Shown here one piece after another: positions 2,427 to 8,849 of a stretch of DNA of 64,000 nucleotides. Numbering within the stretch: position 1 is the stretch's first letter; each line of letters begins with the position of its first letter. The stretch is from Halosaccharopolyspora lacisalsi (lineage in GTDB: Bacteria > Actinomycetota > Actinomycetes > Mycobacteriales > Pseudonocardiaceae). A program made the position numbers and the translations under genes. Location: positions 310,001-374,000 of the forward strand of contig NZ_JACGWZ010000004.1 in the NCBI RefSeq assembly GCF_014137975.1, written 5' to 3'. Below the pieces are notes generated by a model that searched no databases, had not been told where the DNA came from, and saw only the letters and a list, made by a program, of their open reading frames with translations.

Positions 2427-3425
2427 ATGCGCGTGCCAAGCAGCGATATACTCTCCGTAGCATCCGTCGCTCAGTCCGACATCGGACGTGTCGTGGTGAC
2501 CGGCGGATGCGGTTTTGTCGGTCGGTCAGTAGTACGCGCGTTCGTCGATCGCGGCATTCCGGTGACCGTGGTCGATTACCGACTCCCCGAGGGCTCGGCG
2601 GCCGAGATCCTCAGTCACGACCTCGTGACCCACGTGTGCGGCGACCTCACCGATCCGGCGGTGCGGGAGGACGCCGTCGTGCCGGGGACGGCCGGGATCG
2701 TCCACCTGGCCGCGATCACCTCCGTGCTCCGTTCGGTGGACCAGCCCGCCGAAACCCACGCCAACAACGTGGAGGTCACCCAGGGGCTGCTCGAACTCGC
2801 ACGGCAGCGTGGTGTCGGGCAGTTCGTCTTCGCCTCCACCAACGCCGTGGTCGGTGACATCGGCCGGTCCACGATCTCCGAGGACCTGCCGCTGCGTCCC
2901 CTGACTCCCTACGGCGCGACCAAGGCGGCCTGCGAAATGCTGATGTCCGGCTACGCCGGTGCCTACGGCATCGCCGCCAGCGCGTTGCGCTTCACCAATA
3001 TCTACGGTCCGGGTATGGGGCACAAGGACAGCTTCGTTCCCCGACTGATGCGGGCCGCGCTCTCCGGTGAGGGCGTCGAGGTCTACGGCGACGGCGCGCA
3101 GAGCCGCGACTTCGTCCACATCGACGACGTGGTGCAGGGCATCATGGCCGCATGGGACAAGCAGTACGTCGGGGAAGCCGTGATCGGCTCCGGGCGTTCG
3201 ATCTCGGTGCTGGAGCTCATCGACGCCGTGCGGGGGGCCACCGGTGAGTCGCTGCCGGTCACCCACGTTCCCGCCAAGAACGGGGAGATGCCCGCCGTGA
3301 TCGTGAACATCGACCGGGCGCGTCGCGAGCTCGGCTACACACCGGCGGTGTCGCTGTCCGAGGGCCTGAGTACGGTGTGGCAGGACTTCCGGGAATCCGC
3401 CGTTGCCGTGTCGGGGGCGACATGA
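2427..3425 (+). CDS. NAD-dependent sugar epimerase/dehydratase
   Basis: A 332-residue extended short-chain dehydrogenase of the NDP-sugar epimerase type (GalE/WbpP-like). The Rossmann motif GGCGFVG lies near residue 27. The catalytic tyrosine and lysine sit in TPYGATKAACE, a serine-rich FVFASTNAVVG strand precedes them, and RFTNIYGPG follows. About 20 extra residues precede the Rossmann fold, so a later GTG start (2433 or near 2491) is possible. The stop overlaps the next gene's ATG (ATGA), coupling it to a membrane glycosyltransferase. It probably supplies a nucleotide sugar for that enzyme; epimerase, dehydratase and decarboxylase activities cannot be separated by eye. Confidence 0.88.
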   Translation: MRVPSSDILSVASVAQSDIGRVVVTGGCGFVGRSVVRAFVDRGIPVTVVDYRLPEGSAAEILSHDLVTHVCGDLTDPAVREDAVVPGTAGIVHLAAITSVLRSVDQPAETHANNVEVTQGLLELARQRGVGQFVFASTNAVVGDIGRSTISEDLPLRPLTPYGATKAACEMLMSGYAGAYGIAASALRFTNIYGPGMGHKDSFVPRLMRAALSGEGVEVYGDGAQSRDFVHIDDVVQGIMAAWDKQYVGEAVIGSGRSISVLELIDAVRGATGESLPVTHVPAKNGEMPAVIVNIDRARRELGYTPAVSLSEGLSTVWQDFRESAVAVSGAT

Positions 3426-5719
3426 AAGACGCGCTGGTGCGCACGCTGCGTCGGCACTGGCTGCTGGCGCTGTTCGTGCTCGGCGGGCTCGTGCTGCGTG
3501 GGATCACCGTACAGGCCTACCAGCCGATCCTGCTCTACATCGACTCCTACCGGTACCTGACCGACCTCGGGGTCTTCTACCCCGGTGGCATCAATCCCAT
3601 CGGCTACGAGCTCCTGCTGCTGGGGCCGCTGCTGCTGATCGGGAACCTGGGGTTCGTGGCTGTGGTGCAGCACCTGCTGGGGCTGGCGCTGGGTGTGTCC
3701 ATCTACGTGCTGCTGCAACGGCTGGGGTGCCGTCGCTGGATCGCCGCGCTGGCCGCGGCACCGGTGTTGCTCGACGCCTACCAGCTCCAGATCGAGCACC
3801 TGGTCATGTCCGATCTGCTGTTCCAGATCCTGCTGCTGGTCGTGGTGGTGCTGCTGACCTGGTGGGGGACGCCGGGGCCCAAGGTCGCCGCAGTGGCCGG
3901 TGTCGTGCTCGCGACCTCGGTGCTCGTGCGGCTGGTGGGACTGACCCTGATCGTGCCCGCGGGGGTGTTCGTCCTGCTCGCCGCCGGGCTGCGCCCGCAC
4001 GACGGCTGGAAGCGGCGAATGAAGTCCGCCGGAGCTCTCACCGCCGGGTTCGCGGTGATCCTGGGCGGGTACATGGTCTACCACACGATCGCCGTCGGAG
4101 CGCCCGGACTGGGCGGTTCCACCGGCAGCGTCGTCTACGGCCGCACGGCCATGGTCGCCGAGTGCGACAAGCTCGACCTGACTCCGCAACAGCAACGAGT
4201 GTGCCCGGACGAGCCGGTCGCCCAGCGCAAGCTCAACGGCATCGACCACTACATCCACTACTTCCACGACCCCGCCAACGTCGAGAAGCTGCCGGACGGG
4301 TTCGACTACTCCGCCGTGCAGCACACCTTCGCGATGCGGGTGCTGATGCAGCAACCGCTCGACGTCGCCGGCGGTGTCGTCCGGGACTTCCTGAAGGGCT
4401 TCGCCCCGACGAGGACCCAGTCGCCCGGTGACGTGCCGCTGTCCCGCTGGCAGTTCCAGACCCACTACCCGATGAACGGCGAGCCCGAGCACTACGTCAA
4501 GGGGTGGCTGGAGCTCTACGGCGACGGCACCTACTCGGTCGACCAGCAGCTCGCCGGTTTCCTGCGCACCTACCAGCTGAACGGTGGGTACGCGCCCGGT
4601 ACCGCCCTCGGGGGCGCGCTGTTGATCGCGGTGGCCGCCGTGCTCGGTGCGGGGCGTGCCAGGAGAACAGGGCTGCGCGCGGTGTGCCTGCTGCCCGCGG
4701 GGCTGGGCTTCACGGTGCTGTTCACCGCGTCGGTCATGGAGTTCTCCTGGCGCTACCAGCTTCCCGGTCTGGTCCTGCTGCCGCTGGCCGGGGCACTGGG
4801 CATCACGGCCATCACCGGGCGCAGACCTCCCGACCCCGCGCCGAGCGCGGCTTCCGTCACGAGCACGAAGGAGAAGGACATGCCCACGACCTCTTCCGAC
4901 GAGGTGGACCGGGCTGCACTGGCCGATTACGCCGAACGCTACGGTGATCGCGGTTTCGCGCCGGTCGTGGTGCTGATCGCCGCCTACAACGAGGAGGACG
5001 CCCTCGGCAAGGTGCTCGGCGGGATGCCGACCTCGAGCTGCGGGCTCGAGGTGGACACGCTGGTCGTCGTCGACGGAGCGACGGACGCCACCGGCGAGGT
5101 CGCACTGAACCACGGCGCCCAGACGTGTGTCGCCCCCACCAACCGCGGACAGGGGGCCGCCCTGCGGCTGGGGTACCGACTGGCCGCCGAGCGCGGTGCC
5201 CGGTACGTCGTGACCACCGACGCCGACGGTCAGTACGACATCACCGAGCTGCCGAAGTTGTTGCGTCCGTTGATCGAGGACGAGGCGGACTTCGTCACCG
5301 GATCCCGGCGGCTCGGCCGCAGCGAGACGACGGACGCGTTGCGGCGGGCCGGGACCTACGTGTTCGCGTGGGTGGTCAGTGCGATGACGAGTCAGCGCAT
5401 CACCGACACCTCGTTCGGCTTCCGCGGCATGAAGGTGGAAGTGGCCGACGCGGTCCGCTTGGAACAGCCGCAGTACCAGTCCTCGGAGCTGCTGGTGGGT
5501 GTTCTCGCCCGTGGATACCGGGTGCTGGAGCAGCCGATGACCATGCACGAGCGCGTGGCCGGCGTCAGCAAGAAGGGCAACAACCTCTTCTACGGCTACC
5601 GCTACACCAAGGTGGTGGTGGGGACGTGGCTGCGGGAGCGTCGGTCTCGCGGCAGGTCCGTCGCGGCGACGGAGACGGCCACGGCGATCAGCGGACCGGC
5701 TCCCGCCGGCGAGCGGTGA
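3422..5719 (+). CDS. GT-C-type membrane glycosyltransferase fused in frame to a GT2 (DPM1-like) transferase
   Basis: One uninterrupted 765-residue frame from ATG 3422, overlapping the epimerase stop. Residues 1-470 are a multi-pass membrane protein with an early YIDSYRY motif in the first loop, as in GT-C enzymes that use polyprenyl-phosphate sugars. Residues 487-765 are a family 2 transferase of dolichol-phosphate mannose synthase type, with VLIAAYNEE, NRGQGAALRLGY, TTDADGQYD and ITDTSFGFRG. At the junction, ATG 4880 is preceded by a good ribosome binding site (GAAGGAG, about 7 bases), so the GT2 domain may also be made separately. The GT2 part would load a lipid carrier and the GT-C part would transfer the sugar. 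The last 32 bases overlap the convergent gtrA gene. Confidence 0.85.
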   Translation: MKDALVRTLRRHWLLALFVLGGLVLRGITVQAYQPILLYIDSYRYLTDLGVFYPGGINPIGYELLLLGPLLLIGNLGFVAVVQHLLGLALGVSIYVLLQRLGCRRWIAALAAAPVLLDAYQLQIEHLVMSDLLFQILLLVVVVLLTWWGTPGPKVAAVAGVVLATSVLVRLVGLTLIVPAGVFVLLAAGLRPHDGWKRRMKSAGALTAGFAVILGGYMVYHTIAVGAPGLGGSTGSVVYGRTAMVAECDKLDLTPQQQRVCPDEPVAQRKLNGIDHYIHYFHDPANVEKLPDGFDYSAVQHTFAMRVLMQQPLDVAGGVVRDFLKGFAPTRTQSPGDVPLSRWQFQTHYPMNGEPEHYVKGWLELYGDGTYSVDQQLAGFLRTYQLNGGYAPGTALGGALLIAVAAVLGAGRARRTGLRAVCLLPAGLGFTVLFTASVMEFSWRYQLPGLVLLPLAGALGITAITGRRPPDPAPSAASVTSTKEKDMPTTSSDEVDRAALADYAERYGDRGFAPVVVLIAAYNEEDALGKVLGGMPTSSCGLEVDTLVVVDGATDATGEVALNHGAQTCVAPTNRGQGAALRLGYRLAAERGARYVVTTDADGQYDITELPKLLRPLIEDEADFVTGSRRLGRSETTDALRRAGTYVFAWVVSAMTSQRITDTSFGFRGMKVEVADAVRLEQPQYQSSELLVGVLARGYRVLEQPMTMHERVAGVSKKGNNLFYGYRYTKVVVGTWLRERRSRGRSVAATETATAISGPAPAGER

Positions 5720-6152
5720 ACACCACGCGGTCGAACAGGAAGAACTTCACCACGAACATCACCAGGTAAGTACCGAGGAAGGCCCCCCAGACCAGGATCA
5801 CCTGTCCCGGGGGCGACTGCGGGAACAGCCGCAGTGCCAGTGTTTCGGTGTTGCTCGTCGCTAGGGCGGCGAGCAACGCCGTGCTCACCGAAACCATCGC
5901 GAAGCGCAGTAGTTGTCCGCGTAGTTCCGCGCTCCCTCCACCGCCCCAGGTTCGGCGGTTGAGCAGGAAGTTCGGTATCGCACCGGCCAGCCATGCCAGC
6001 ACTGTGGAGGTCACGGGGAGTGCCCCGAGCGCGTAAGAAGCGAGGAAGACGAGCTGACTGGCCGTGGTCGCCACCGCCGAGGCCGCCACGAAGCGCCGGA
6101 GCAGCCGTCCGTAGCGTCCCTTCGATCGTGTCTCGTCGACGTTCTGCTGCAC
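5688..6152 (-). CDS. GtrA-family membrane protein
   Basis: A 154-residue protein with four predicted membrane segments and the GtrA hallmark AIPNFLLNRRTW in the second helix pair. GtrA proteins help flip or retain polyprenyl-linked sugars, and commonly sit beside DPM1-like GT2 genes, as here. I chose GTG 6152 because GGAACGAG lies just upstream and because the longer frame (to 6431) adds 93 low-complexity residues not seen in the family. It is convergent with the glycosyltransferase gene and overlaps its 3' end by 32 bases. Confidence 0.88.
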   Translation of the reverse strand: MQQNVDETRSKGRYGRLLRRFVAASAVATTASQLVFLASYALGALPVTSTVLAWLAGAIPNFLLNRRTWGGGGSAELRGQLLRFAMVSVSTALLAALATSNTETLALRLFPQSPPGQVILVWGAFLGTYLVMFVVKFFLFDRVVFTARRREPVR

Positions 6153-6458
6153 GCCTCGTTCCTTCCGGGCACGGCTCGCCGGACCGCGACTCTGTTCACG
6201 TTCATCGAACACGGCGGTTGCCCTCGGTGATTGTCGGGACCGCCTTCGCCGGAGGCCCGATGGATGAGAACATACCTTTCGTATCGAATGGGTGTGTGCG
6301 GGTGCGGAGGTCATCGGGGCGTCTTCACCACACCCACACAGCGTGTTGCCTATCATTCCGGGGACCCGGTCTGATGGGAAGGTGTCAATAAGCGTTGACG
6401 GAGACGGTGTCATGAGTACGTCGACGGACAACCACGAACACCGGTAACGTCAGCATAA

Positions 6459-7646
<1,188 letters not shown>

Positions 7647-7656
7647 GTTAGTTCGG

Positions 7657-7703
7657 GTGGCCGCGAGGCGATACCGGACGAGCGGTAGGAGCCTCGCGGC
7701 CAC
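7657..7703. terminator. Bidirectional hairpin terminator
   Basis: A perfect 13-bp inverted repeat (arms 7657-7669 and 7691-7703, left arm gtggccgcgaggc, 21-base loop) lies just after the sqdB stop and before the convergent sulfite-carrier stop. It has no T-run, as is usual in high-GC actinobacteria. Confidence 0.65.
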
Positions 7704-7742
7704 TTCGTCAGCAGTGATTCGCGGGCCGGGTCGGAAGCTCGA

Positions 7743-8675
7743 TCACAGTGCCGGTTCGGCCCGCCTTTCCGGCTCGACCCGCTTCTCCTGCTCGGCCGCC
7801 TCGGATGCGGACTCCTCGACCGGCCCGCGACGAACCCTGCGCAGGGCCTGGACGAGAGCCGTCGCCCACACCACGACGGTGATGGCGTAGATGCTCCAGG
7901 CCGTTGTCACGGGCAGCTCGAGACTGGTCACCAGTGTTCGCAGGTTTGTCAGCACGATCATTCCGCCCGCGCCGACTCCGATCAGGTGCGTCGGCACGAT
8001 CCGCACCAGGTAGGCGGCCAGCGGCGCGGCGATGACGCCCCCGAGCAACAGTCCGCCCACGACGGGCCAGGACAACCCCGAGCGGCCGAGCGCCATCAGG
8101 AAACCGGCGCTGGCCGCCAGTCCGATCAGTAGTTCGCTGGTGTCGACCGAGCCCACGACCTTGCGCGGTTCGACCTTGCCGGTGCTCAGCAGGGTCGGCG
8201 TGGACACCGGCCCCCAGCCGCCGCCACCCGTGGCGTCGAGAAATCCCGCGACGAGCCCGAGCGGTGCCAACAGCTTGGGACTGACTCCTGTCGTGCCGCG
8301 TCGGCGCACCGTGCGGAAGGCGAACCGGATGAGCACGTAGACCCCGAGCACCAGGAGCACCGCGGCCATCCAGGGTTTGGCGATCGCCGTGGACAGGTTG
8401 CTCAGCGCCGTGGCTCCCAGGAACGCCCCGACAGCACCGGGCACTCCCATTGTCATCACGATTCTGAGGTCCACGTTGCCGAGCTTGTAGTGCGACAGTC
8501 CGGAGGCGGCGGCCGTGCCGATTTCGGCCAGGTGCACCGAGGCCGAGGTCAGCGCGGGCGTGAGGCCGGCCGCGAACAGGATGGTCGTCGAGGTGGCTCC
8601 GTAAGCCATGCCCAGGGAGCCGTCGATCAGCTGCGCGAAAAAGCCGCCGAGCGCGAAGAGCAGGAAGGCTTGCAC
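7743..8675 (-). CDS. TauE/SafE-family sulfite-type exporter
   Basis: A 310-residue membrane protein with about eight hydrophobic segments. Internal repeat motifs are typical of TauE/SafE carriers: an N-terminal GGFFAQLIDGSLGMAYG and a mid-protein AGFLDATGGGGWGP. The family moves sulfite, sulfoacetate or related anions; direction is often uncertain. The start is GTG 8675 with GGAG six bases upstream. The charged C-terminal tail (residues 285-310) is cytoplasmic-looking. It is convergent with sqdB, whose product consumes sulfite, and is preceded 81 bases upstream by a cysteine-containing leader peptide. Together these suggest control by sulfur supply. Confidence 0.88.
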   Translation of the reverse strand: MQAFLLFALGGFFAQLIDGSLGMAYGATSTTILFAAGLTPALTSASVHLAEIGTAAASGLSHYKLGNVDLRIVMTMGVPGAVGAFLGATALSNLSTAIAKPWMAAVLLVLGVYVLIRFAFRTVRRRGTTGVSPKLLAPLGLVAGFLDATGGGGWGPVSTPTLLSTGKVEPRKVVGSVDTSELLIGLAASAGFLMALGRSGLSWPVVGGLLLGGVIAAPLAAYLVRIVPTHLIGVGAGGMIVLTNLRTLVTSLELPVTTAWSIYAITVVVWATALVQALRRVRRGPVEESASEAAEQEKRVEPERRAEPAL

Positions 8676-8756
8676 GATGTCTCCGGTGAACGGTCGGGCC
8701 GACAGCGCGGATGCTGCCGCCGGAAGCCGACGAGCGTGAGAACTATGGCCGTGGAA

Positions 8757-8849
8757 TCAGCGAGCGGCCCGACATCCTGCGGATACCACGCGGAGCAGGT
8801 CGACGTGCAGGCGCTGCACCAGCAGCGGCCGTCGATCCTCGCGTGTCAT
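8757..8849 (-). CDS. Cysteine-containing leader peptide (HVDL-R...CR type)
   Basis: A 30-codon frame starting at ATG 8849 and ending at TGA 8757, 81 bases before the TauE/SafE gene. The peptide ends LHVDLLRVVSAGCRAAR, which matches the short actinobacterial leader peptides with an R-x-HVDL-x-R core and a Cys-Arg near the end that precede sulfur assimilation genes. Such leaders are thought to let ribosome stalling at the cysteine codon adjust expression of the downstream gene. No strong ribosome binding site is visible, so translation may be leaderless. I am fairly sure of the family resemblance; regulation by cysteine is inferred. Confidence 0.7.
   Translation of the reverse strand: MTREDRRPLLVQRLHVDLLRVVSAGCRAAR

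Follow-up and report, generated by a model that had tools for sequence, protein, structure and literature searches.

What does a gene for a uridine diphosphate (UDP)-sulfoquinovose synthase do in an actinomycete when the genes around it encode glycosyltransferases of the kind that handle lipid-linked sugars? The question is raised by a 64,000-nucleotide stretch of the 5.37 Mb genome of Halosaccharopolyspora lacisalsi (contig NZ_JACGWZ010000004.1, positions 310,001 to 374,000; hereafter the window, with positions counted from its first letter), in which the synthase gene sqdB lies with a gene for a fusion of GT-C and GT2 glycosyltransferase domains, a gtrA-type gene and a sugar epimerase gene. 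Analysis of open reading frames (ORFs) together with family scans found these genes, and two sulfur-related neighbours, where the initial annotation had placed them. We propose that the module at positions 2427–7646 is probably a three-component extracytoplasmic glycosylation system adapted to a sulfosugar, a reading drawn from sequence comparison and a predicted fold.

The assignment of SqdB as a UDP-sulfoquinovose synthase is supported by homology along its full length. A phmmer search of the Protein Data Bank (PDB) matched residues 2–381 to Arabidopsis SQD1 (1qrr/1i24) with an E-value of ~1e-161, and the nearest NCBIfam model is NF041015, at 468.7 bits against a curated cut-off of 575, with the next family at 39.3. 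His95, Arg100, Thr144, Met145, Tyr181 and Lys185 are invariant among 17 aligned SqdB proteins, namely that of the window and 16 of the 17 from other sqdB-bearing relatives (the copy of G010, L033, was left out). According to a mutational study of the archaeal enzyme Agl3, His95, Arg101, Met145, Tyr182 and Lys186 of that protein are essential and a Thr144 to Ala mutant is still active (PMC4388408). The residues essential in Agl3 are thus kept here, and Thr144, which the initial annotation had listed with Tyr181 and Lys185 as intact (as all three are), is the weakest evidence of the noted residues because the corresponding Agl3 mutant stayed active. The closest named relative of this SqdB, within the best 80 SqdB loci among the matches listed in the GTDB collection, is that of Actinopolyspora mzabensis, at 90% identity.

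The fusion gene (3422–5719, plus strand) has a 765-residue product whose GT2 half scores 60.1 bits with PF00535 (cut-off 23.3), matches the NF041391 dolichyl-phosphate hexose transferase model at 1.9e-30, below its cut-off, and in a PDB search resembles dolichol monophosphate mannose synthase (5mlz; E 2.6e-8). The GtrA protein reaches 31.7 bits with PF04138 (cut-off 26.1). For the GT-C half, residues 1–475 were modelled by AlphaFold from 15 sequences, with a mean predicted local distance difference test (pLDDT) score of 82.6. Foldseek returned a single match below 0.001 for this model, Pmt4, and the 13 best rows of a VIA-align comparison were Pmt4, Pmt1-Pmt2, OST and ArnT (Z 17.2–19.1, 296–341 residues aligned). 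PMT, OST and ArnT enzymes all use lipid-linked donors. GT-C enzymes have an acidic residue just past the first membrane helix, and Asp41, which directly follows the first membrane helix of this GT-C and is invariant in both sets of 15 aligned sequences, may be the catalytic residue.

Co-occurrence in related genomes, the comparison that the initial annotation had suggested, links these genes to sqdB. Our relative set held 60 genomes, own included, 18 with sqdB and 42 without. Among the matches listed, which in many genomes are the best-scoring candidates only, the GT2 part of the fusion was matched in 17 of the 18 sqdB genomes and in no sqdB-less genome; for the epimerase, with a threshold of E ≤ 1e-60, the corresponding counts were 15 and none (Fisher p 5e-14 and 2e-11, values that are overstated, the genomes being related). 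Two of the 42 sqdB-less genomes have a match to the GT-C part only. GT2 and sqdB lie on one extracted stretch in 14 of the 18 genomes. Because two others keep the GT2 away from sqdB, on another contig in G002 and ~200 kb off in G017, co-occurrence outlives the loss of linkage. In G010, whose short contigs do not allow linkage to be judged, the GT2 match is partial and lies where a contig ends. The sole sqdB genome that has no GT2 is G056, in which a GT4 glycosyltransferase gene overlaps sqdB by 4 bases.

The GT4 gene of G056 may point to another fate for UDP-sulfoquinovose. The sulfolipid of plants and cyanobacteria is made with SqdX/SQD2, and we call such genes "SqdX-like", a name based on their position beside sqdB and their GT4 domains. 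Both kinds of partner recur in a class set of 296 genomes, 13 of which, own included, carry sqdB at E ≤ 1e-70. In the 12 besides our own, a GT2 of this family (41–61% identical) lies near sqdB in nine and an SqdX-like GT4 in two, G286 and G277; G335 has neither partner near sqdB and a GT2 of another kind nearby. With at most three candidates per genome considered, the GT2 part was matched in ten class genomes besides our own, nine of which carry sqdB, and the tenth, G186, has an sqdB fragment at a contig edge.

We then compared the neighbourhoods, within 6.5 kb of sqdB, of 110 loci: that of the window, 17 from relatives, 12 from class genomes and 80 named loci, the last being the best 80 SqdB loci among the matches listed in the GTDB collection; no two of the SqdB proteins are identical. 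At cut-offs that we set ourselves (38% identity with 130 bits for the GT2, 38% with 150 bits for SqdX-like genes and 45% with 150 bits for the epimerase), a GT2 was found near 50, an SqdX-like gene near 15, both near none and neither near 45. The split persists in the 59 loci with full flanks (GT2 35, SqdX-like 9, both 0, neither 15; Fisher p 1e-4). The remaining module genes follow the GT2: the epimerase was found near 37 of the 50 GT2-type loci, none of the 15 SqdX-like loci and one of the 45 loci of neither type, GtrA near 34, 0 and 4, and GT-C near 29, 0 and 0. The GtrA counts used four queries, one of which (L036_07) was chosen by place alone; its omission leaves them unchanged. Epimerase, GT-C, GT2, GtrA and SqdB occur together in Actinopolyspora, Amycolatopsis (three), Saccharomonospora and three of four Kribbella, the fourth having a methyltransferase at the GtrA position, and epimerase, GT2 and methyltransferase are present in Nonomuraea (three) and Actinomadura (two). 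Taken together, the relatives and the 110 loci indicate that the grouping of SqdB with GT-C/GT2, GtrA and epimerase exceeds chance.

One locus suggests that the synthase itself can be exchanged. Four loci (L035, L036, L037 and L044) share the module genes in one order with few extra genes, and in all four the module adjoins genes matching sepH and serC in L036. Between L044 and the other three, the epimerase is 74–78% identical, the glycosyltransferase fusion 62–65% and the flanking genes 58–86%, except for cl18 (40–44%). The SqdB of L044, in contrast, is 43–44% identical to those of L035–L037, which share 85–91% among themselves; this low identity amid conserved neighbours argues that an SqdB of a distant clade replaced the resident one. 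Such replacement in place would be expected of a module that depends on the activity of SqdB rather than on one particular SqdB protein. A FastTree tree of SqdB (31 open forks among 107 inner branches, with a long-branch warning), used for this point only, places the GT2 partner with two well separated SqdB clades.

In the mechanism that we envisage, SqdB would combine UDP-glucose with sulfite to give UDP-sulfoquinovose. The GT2 domain would load the sugar onto polyprenyl phosphate on the inner side of the membrane, and GtrA would aid passage of the lipid-linked sugar to the outer side, where the GT-C domain would add the sulfosugar to an extracytoplasmic glycan or glycoprotein. The epimerase would tune the sugar by converting UDP-sulfoquinovose to its 4-epimer or by acting on the UDP-glucose/galactose pool. 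We infer all of the substrates, the order of the steps, the role of GtrA as flippase and the acceptor. Three results support the suggestion of the initial annotation that the sugar is destined for a glycan rather than a lipid: the co-occurrence, the separation of GT2-type from SqdX-like loci and the fold of the GT-C half.

Several observations weigh against this proposal. SqdB scores under the NF041015 cut-off, the GT2 half passed no NCBIfam equivalog cut-off in our NCBIfam scan, and the GT-C half scores 18.1 bits with PF02366 (PMT), under the cut-off of 22.7; relatives of the GT-C, moreover, are common in sqdB-less genomes. The loci share descent, so that the Fisher p-values exaggerate their independence, and the presence and absence counts of the relative set rest in many genomes on the best candidates. 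At the 50 GT2-type loci the epimerase was unfound at 13, GtrA at 16 and GT-C at 21; short contigs account for some of these gaps, and three of the 13 have a weaker epimerase, 35–39% identical. No GT-C was found within 6.5 kb of sqdB in the three Nonomuraea and two Actinomadura loci. Furthermore, at three GT2-type loci (L076, L085 and L087) sqdB has a nearby GT4 that is 30–34% identical to an SqdX-like query, below our cut-off, and unlinked GT4s of the relatives match the GT4 of G286 (L074) as well as does the sqdB-linked GT4 of G056 (40%).

These last points bear on a plant-type sulfolipid, in which SqdB would feed an unlinked SqdX-type enzyme that makes sulfoquinovosyl diacylglycerol and the GT-C/GT2 genes would be bystanders. 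The closest PDB relative of SqdB is indeed the plant sulfolipid enzyme, SqdX-like GT4s adjoin sqdB in the actinobacteria G056, G286 and G277 as well as in Halobacillus, Salinicoccus and Alicyclobacillus, and seven of the 17 GT2-bearing sqdB genomes have unlinked GT4s 37–40% identical to an SqdX-like query, so that a distant SqdX is possible there. Within the SqdX-like set the GT4 of G056 diverges most: its identity to the closest other SqdX-like query is 37.7%, slightly below our 38% cut-off, and it is counted among the 15 solely through its match to itself, whereas the L074 and L080 queries pass without a self-match. When the more typical GT4 of G286 was used to search the relative set, GT4s at 35–41% identity were found in eight of the 18 sqdB genomes (the linked copy of G056 included) and in 19 of the 42 others; such GT4s, therefore, do not track sqdB. 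Because unlinked GT4s match equally well, "SqdX-like" denotes a GT4 beside sqdB and is not separable by sequence alone in the relatives. At E ≤ 1e-40, however, neither the GT4 beside sqdB of G056 nor that of G286 matches anything in our own genome, and the latter is unmatched at this threshold in nine further sqdB genomes. No SqdX/SqdD-type gene was found with the SqdX-like queries, at the cut-offs used, within 6.5 kb of the sqdB of the window, so that the earlier statement that none was recognised holds for the neighbourhood and, with these two queries, for the genome, which may still harbour a distant SqdX. With GT2 and SqdX-like genes together at none of the 110 loci, we regard the sulfolipid explanation as improbable.

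Two further explanations keep the sulfosugar apart from the GT-C/GT2 fusion or do away with it. The fusion and GtrA might move a common hexose that the epimerase produces (galactose, for example), with UDP-sulfoquinovose used by another, unlinked glycosyltransferase. The layout lends itself to this, the epimerase gene being co-directional with the fusion gene and overlapping it by 4 bases while sqdB forms a separate unit across gtrA, as does the presence of GT-C relatives in many sqdB-less genomes; yet GT2 and epimerase were unfound in all 42 sqdB-less relatives, at the thresholds used and among the matches listed, and the place of SqdB in L044 is occupied by one of another clade, and we consider this account unlikely. 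Alternatively, SqdB of this clade might use another nucleophile or halt at the 5,6-ene, so that the sugar would not be sulfoquinovose. Agl3 is reported to form UDP-glucose-5,6-ene in the absence of a sulfur donor (PMC4388408), which, with the unreached NF041015 cut-off, speaks for such a possibility, but the full-length match to SQD1 and the invariance of the residues essential in Agl3 make it very unlikely. The sulfosugar module thus remains the explanation that we favour.

The epimerase may add a further twist to that module. By sequence and by profile its nearest PDB relative is MoeE5 (6kv9), which we take to be a UDP-glucuronate 4-epimerase and hence to act on a sugar charged at C6. Lys200 of the epimerase is invariant in 21 of 21 sequences and aligns one position off an arginine of MoeE5. 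Because the epimerase is tied to GT2 and not to SqdX-like loci, it would alter the transferred sugar and not merely serve the supply of UDP-glucose. We therefore raise, tentatively and with more doubt than confidence, the idea that it converts UDP-sulfoquinovose to UDP-6-deoxy-6-sulfo-galactose and that the module puts a sulfonated galactose on an actinomycete surface glycan; we know of no glycan that contains this sugar.

The features of the module and its two sulfur-related neighbours are collected in Table 1. The 3′ end of gtrA falls within the 3′ end of the fusion gene, on the opposite strand, and sqdB and the TauE gene are convergent.

Table 1 Features of the sulfosugar module and its neighbours in the window.
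Feature	Position	Strand	Remarks
NDP (nucleoside diphosphate)-sugar epimerase, extended SDR (short-chain dehydrogenase/reductase) type	2427..3425	+	PF01370, 180 bits; nearest solved relative MoeE5, 6kv9
GT-C half of fusion, ~residues 1–479	3422..4858	+	candidate transferase to extracytoplasmic acceptor; AlphaFold fold
GT2 half of fusion, ~residues 501–765	4922..5719	+	candidate polyprenyl-phosphate-sulfosugar synthase; PF00535
GtrA-type small membrane protein	5688..6212	-	candidate lipid-linked sugar flippase; PF04138
sqdB, UDP-sulfoquinovose synthase	6477..7646	+	phmmer to SQD1; invariant residues
TauE/SafE-type carrier	7743..8675	-	PF01925; neighbour, probably outside module
Cys leader peptide ORF, 30 residues	8757..8849 (or start 8855)	-	upstream of TauE; NF042934

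The initial annotation had counted a sulfite carrier and a cysteine leader peptide as parts of the cluster, an assignment that their distribution does not support. The TauE protein scores 120.3 bits with PF01925 (cut-off 32.6) and the leader 26.5 bits with NF042934, whose cut-off is 27. At E ≤ 1e-40 there are 25 TauE matches in 19 of the 60 genomes of the relative set; four adjoin sqdB, those of our own genome and of L030–L032, that is, in four of 18 sqdB genomes. In the survey TauE lies near four of the 50 GT2-type loci and none of the 15 SqdX-like or 45 other loci, and none was found within 6.5 kb of sqdB in A. mzabensis (L084). A scan with a loosened regular expression, combined with reading of the sequence, found a like leader ORF before nine of the 25 TauE matches, including all four that adjoin sqdB (the three besides that of the window being L165–L167). 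Of the other five leader and TauE pairs, two are in the sqdB-less genomes G008 and G050, one apiece, and three lie far from sqdB in G019, G027 and G032. TauE and its leader are thus probably a separate sulfur-supply unit, one that may help SqdB without being a constant component of the module. The recurrence of leader and TauE pairs independently of sqdB (L168, L177, L181, L184 and L186) makes these pairs, with that of the window, candidates for cysteine-responsive sulfite carriers. Candidate leader peptides are described before mycobacterial cys operons (PMC1262725). Like the actinobacterial Cys-rich leaders (NF042934 and NF042936), the ORF of the window is short, Cys-bearing and upstream of a sulfur gene; it differs in standing before TauE and in scoring 0.5 bit under the NF042934 cut-off.

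Other genes near sqdB deserve mention in their own right. Upstream of the module, a three-gene run at 31–2353, which also adjoins the module in four other genomes (L029–L032), presumably encodes Tm-1/UPF0261-like, TIM-barrel PEP-mutase-like and SRPBCC-like proteins. Genes similar to an S-adenosylmethionine-dependent methyltransferase gene (PF13489 in the copy at L038:5746–6477) occur at 13 of the 50 GT2-type loci, those of Nonomuraea and Actinomadura included, and suggest that the sulfosugar may be O-methylated or modified in some other way. Similarity to LPG_synthase_TM is weak, under the Pfam cut-off, at L042:11241–12206 and clear at L075:6412–7428; such a protein, perhaps an alternative flippase, also lies near the GT2 at L076, L077 and L078, the loci concerned being some type II SqdB loci and L075. 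Many of the 45 loci of neither type are on short contigs, and they include G002 and G017, whose GT2 sits elsewhere. In a search for a shared third partner among 41 named loci of this type, the broadest protein families were found in just six loci, except for one reverse-strand ORF overlapping sqdB. Six acidobacterial loci (L125, L140, L144, L147, L152 and L162) have in common a large membrane protein, ArnT-like by eye, and are possibly another system that places a sulfosugar on a glycan.

As far as we searched, the combination is undescribed, although all of its parts belong to known families. The introduction of a 2026 review (PMC12890257) assigns sulfoquinovose to the N-glycans of Sulfolobus and to sulfolipids, both of phototrophs and of Bacillus coahuilensis; no surface glycan of a bacterium is mentioned there. 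We found no report of sulfoquinovose in an actinomycete surface glycan among the matches listed in the open-access literature, subscription papers and preprints being outside the scope of the search. Sulfoquinovose is one of the most abundant organic sulfonates. If our proposal is correct, bacteria have a new use for the sugar of the plant sulfolipid, on a surface glycan instead of a membrane lipid, and cultured members of genera such as Amycolatopsis, Kribbella, Nonomuraea, Actinomadura and Actinopolyspora would bear an overlooked sulfonated surface sugar, which would affect the charge of the envelope, the binding of phages and hosts and the cycling of sulfur in soil. A genomic rule would also follow, whereby a GT2-type or an SqdX-like partner predicts the fate of UDP-sulfoquinovose from sequence.

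The proposed system can be set beside three that are known. It resembles the SQD1/SqdB enzymes of Arabidopsis and cyanobacteria in full-length homology and catalytic residues; their known role is in sulfolipid (PMC12890257), whereas the transferases linked to the SqdB of the window are of the lipid-phosphate-sugar kind. With Agl3 of Sulfolobus acidocaldarius it would share the use of UDP-sulfoquinovose for a surface glycan and not a lipid, there the N-glycan of the S-layer; that system differs in being archaeal and N-linked and in its proposed membrane-bound transferase, Agl1, and the part of the report available mentions no set of GT2, GtrA and GT-C (PMC4388408). Similar in plan are the three-component systems, among them GtrABC, the Citrobacter ribofuranose/xylofuranose system and that of mycobacterial arabinan, in which side chains are added outside the membrane by a GT-C working with a flippase and a synthase of the polyprenyl-phosphate-sugar, in some cases also with an epimerase; donor synthase, flippase, GT-C and auxiliary epimerase are the features in common with the module (PMC11127046). 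The module of the window departs from them in that GT-C and GT2 are fused, as in many other carriers, that its epimerase is of the NDP-sugar SDR type and that its donor maker is SqdB, so that the sugar would be expected to bear a sulfonate. By this analogy, the module fits the published three-component systems with SqdB as the maker of the donor.

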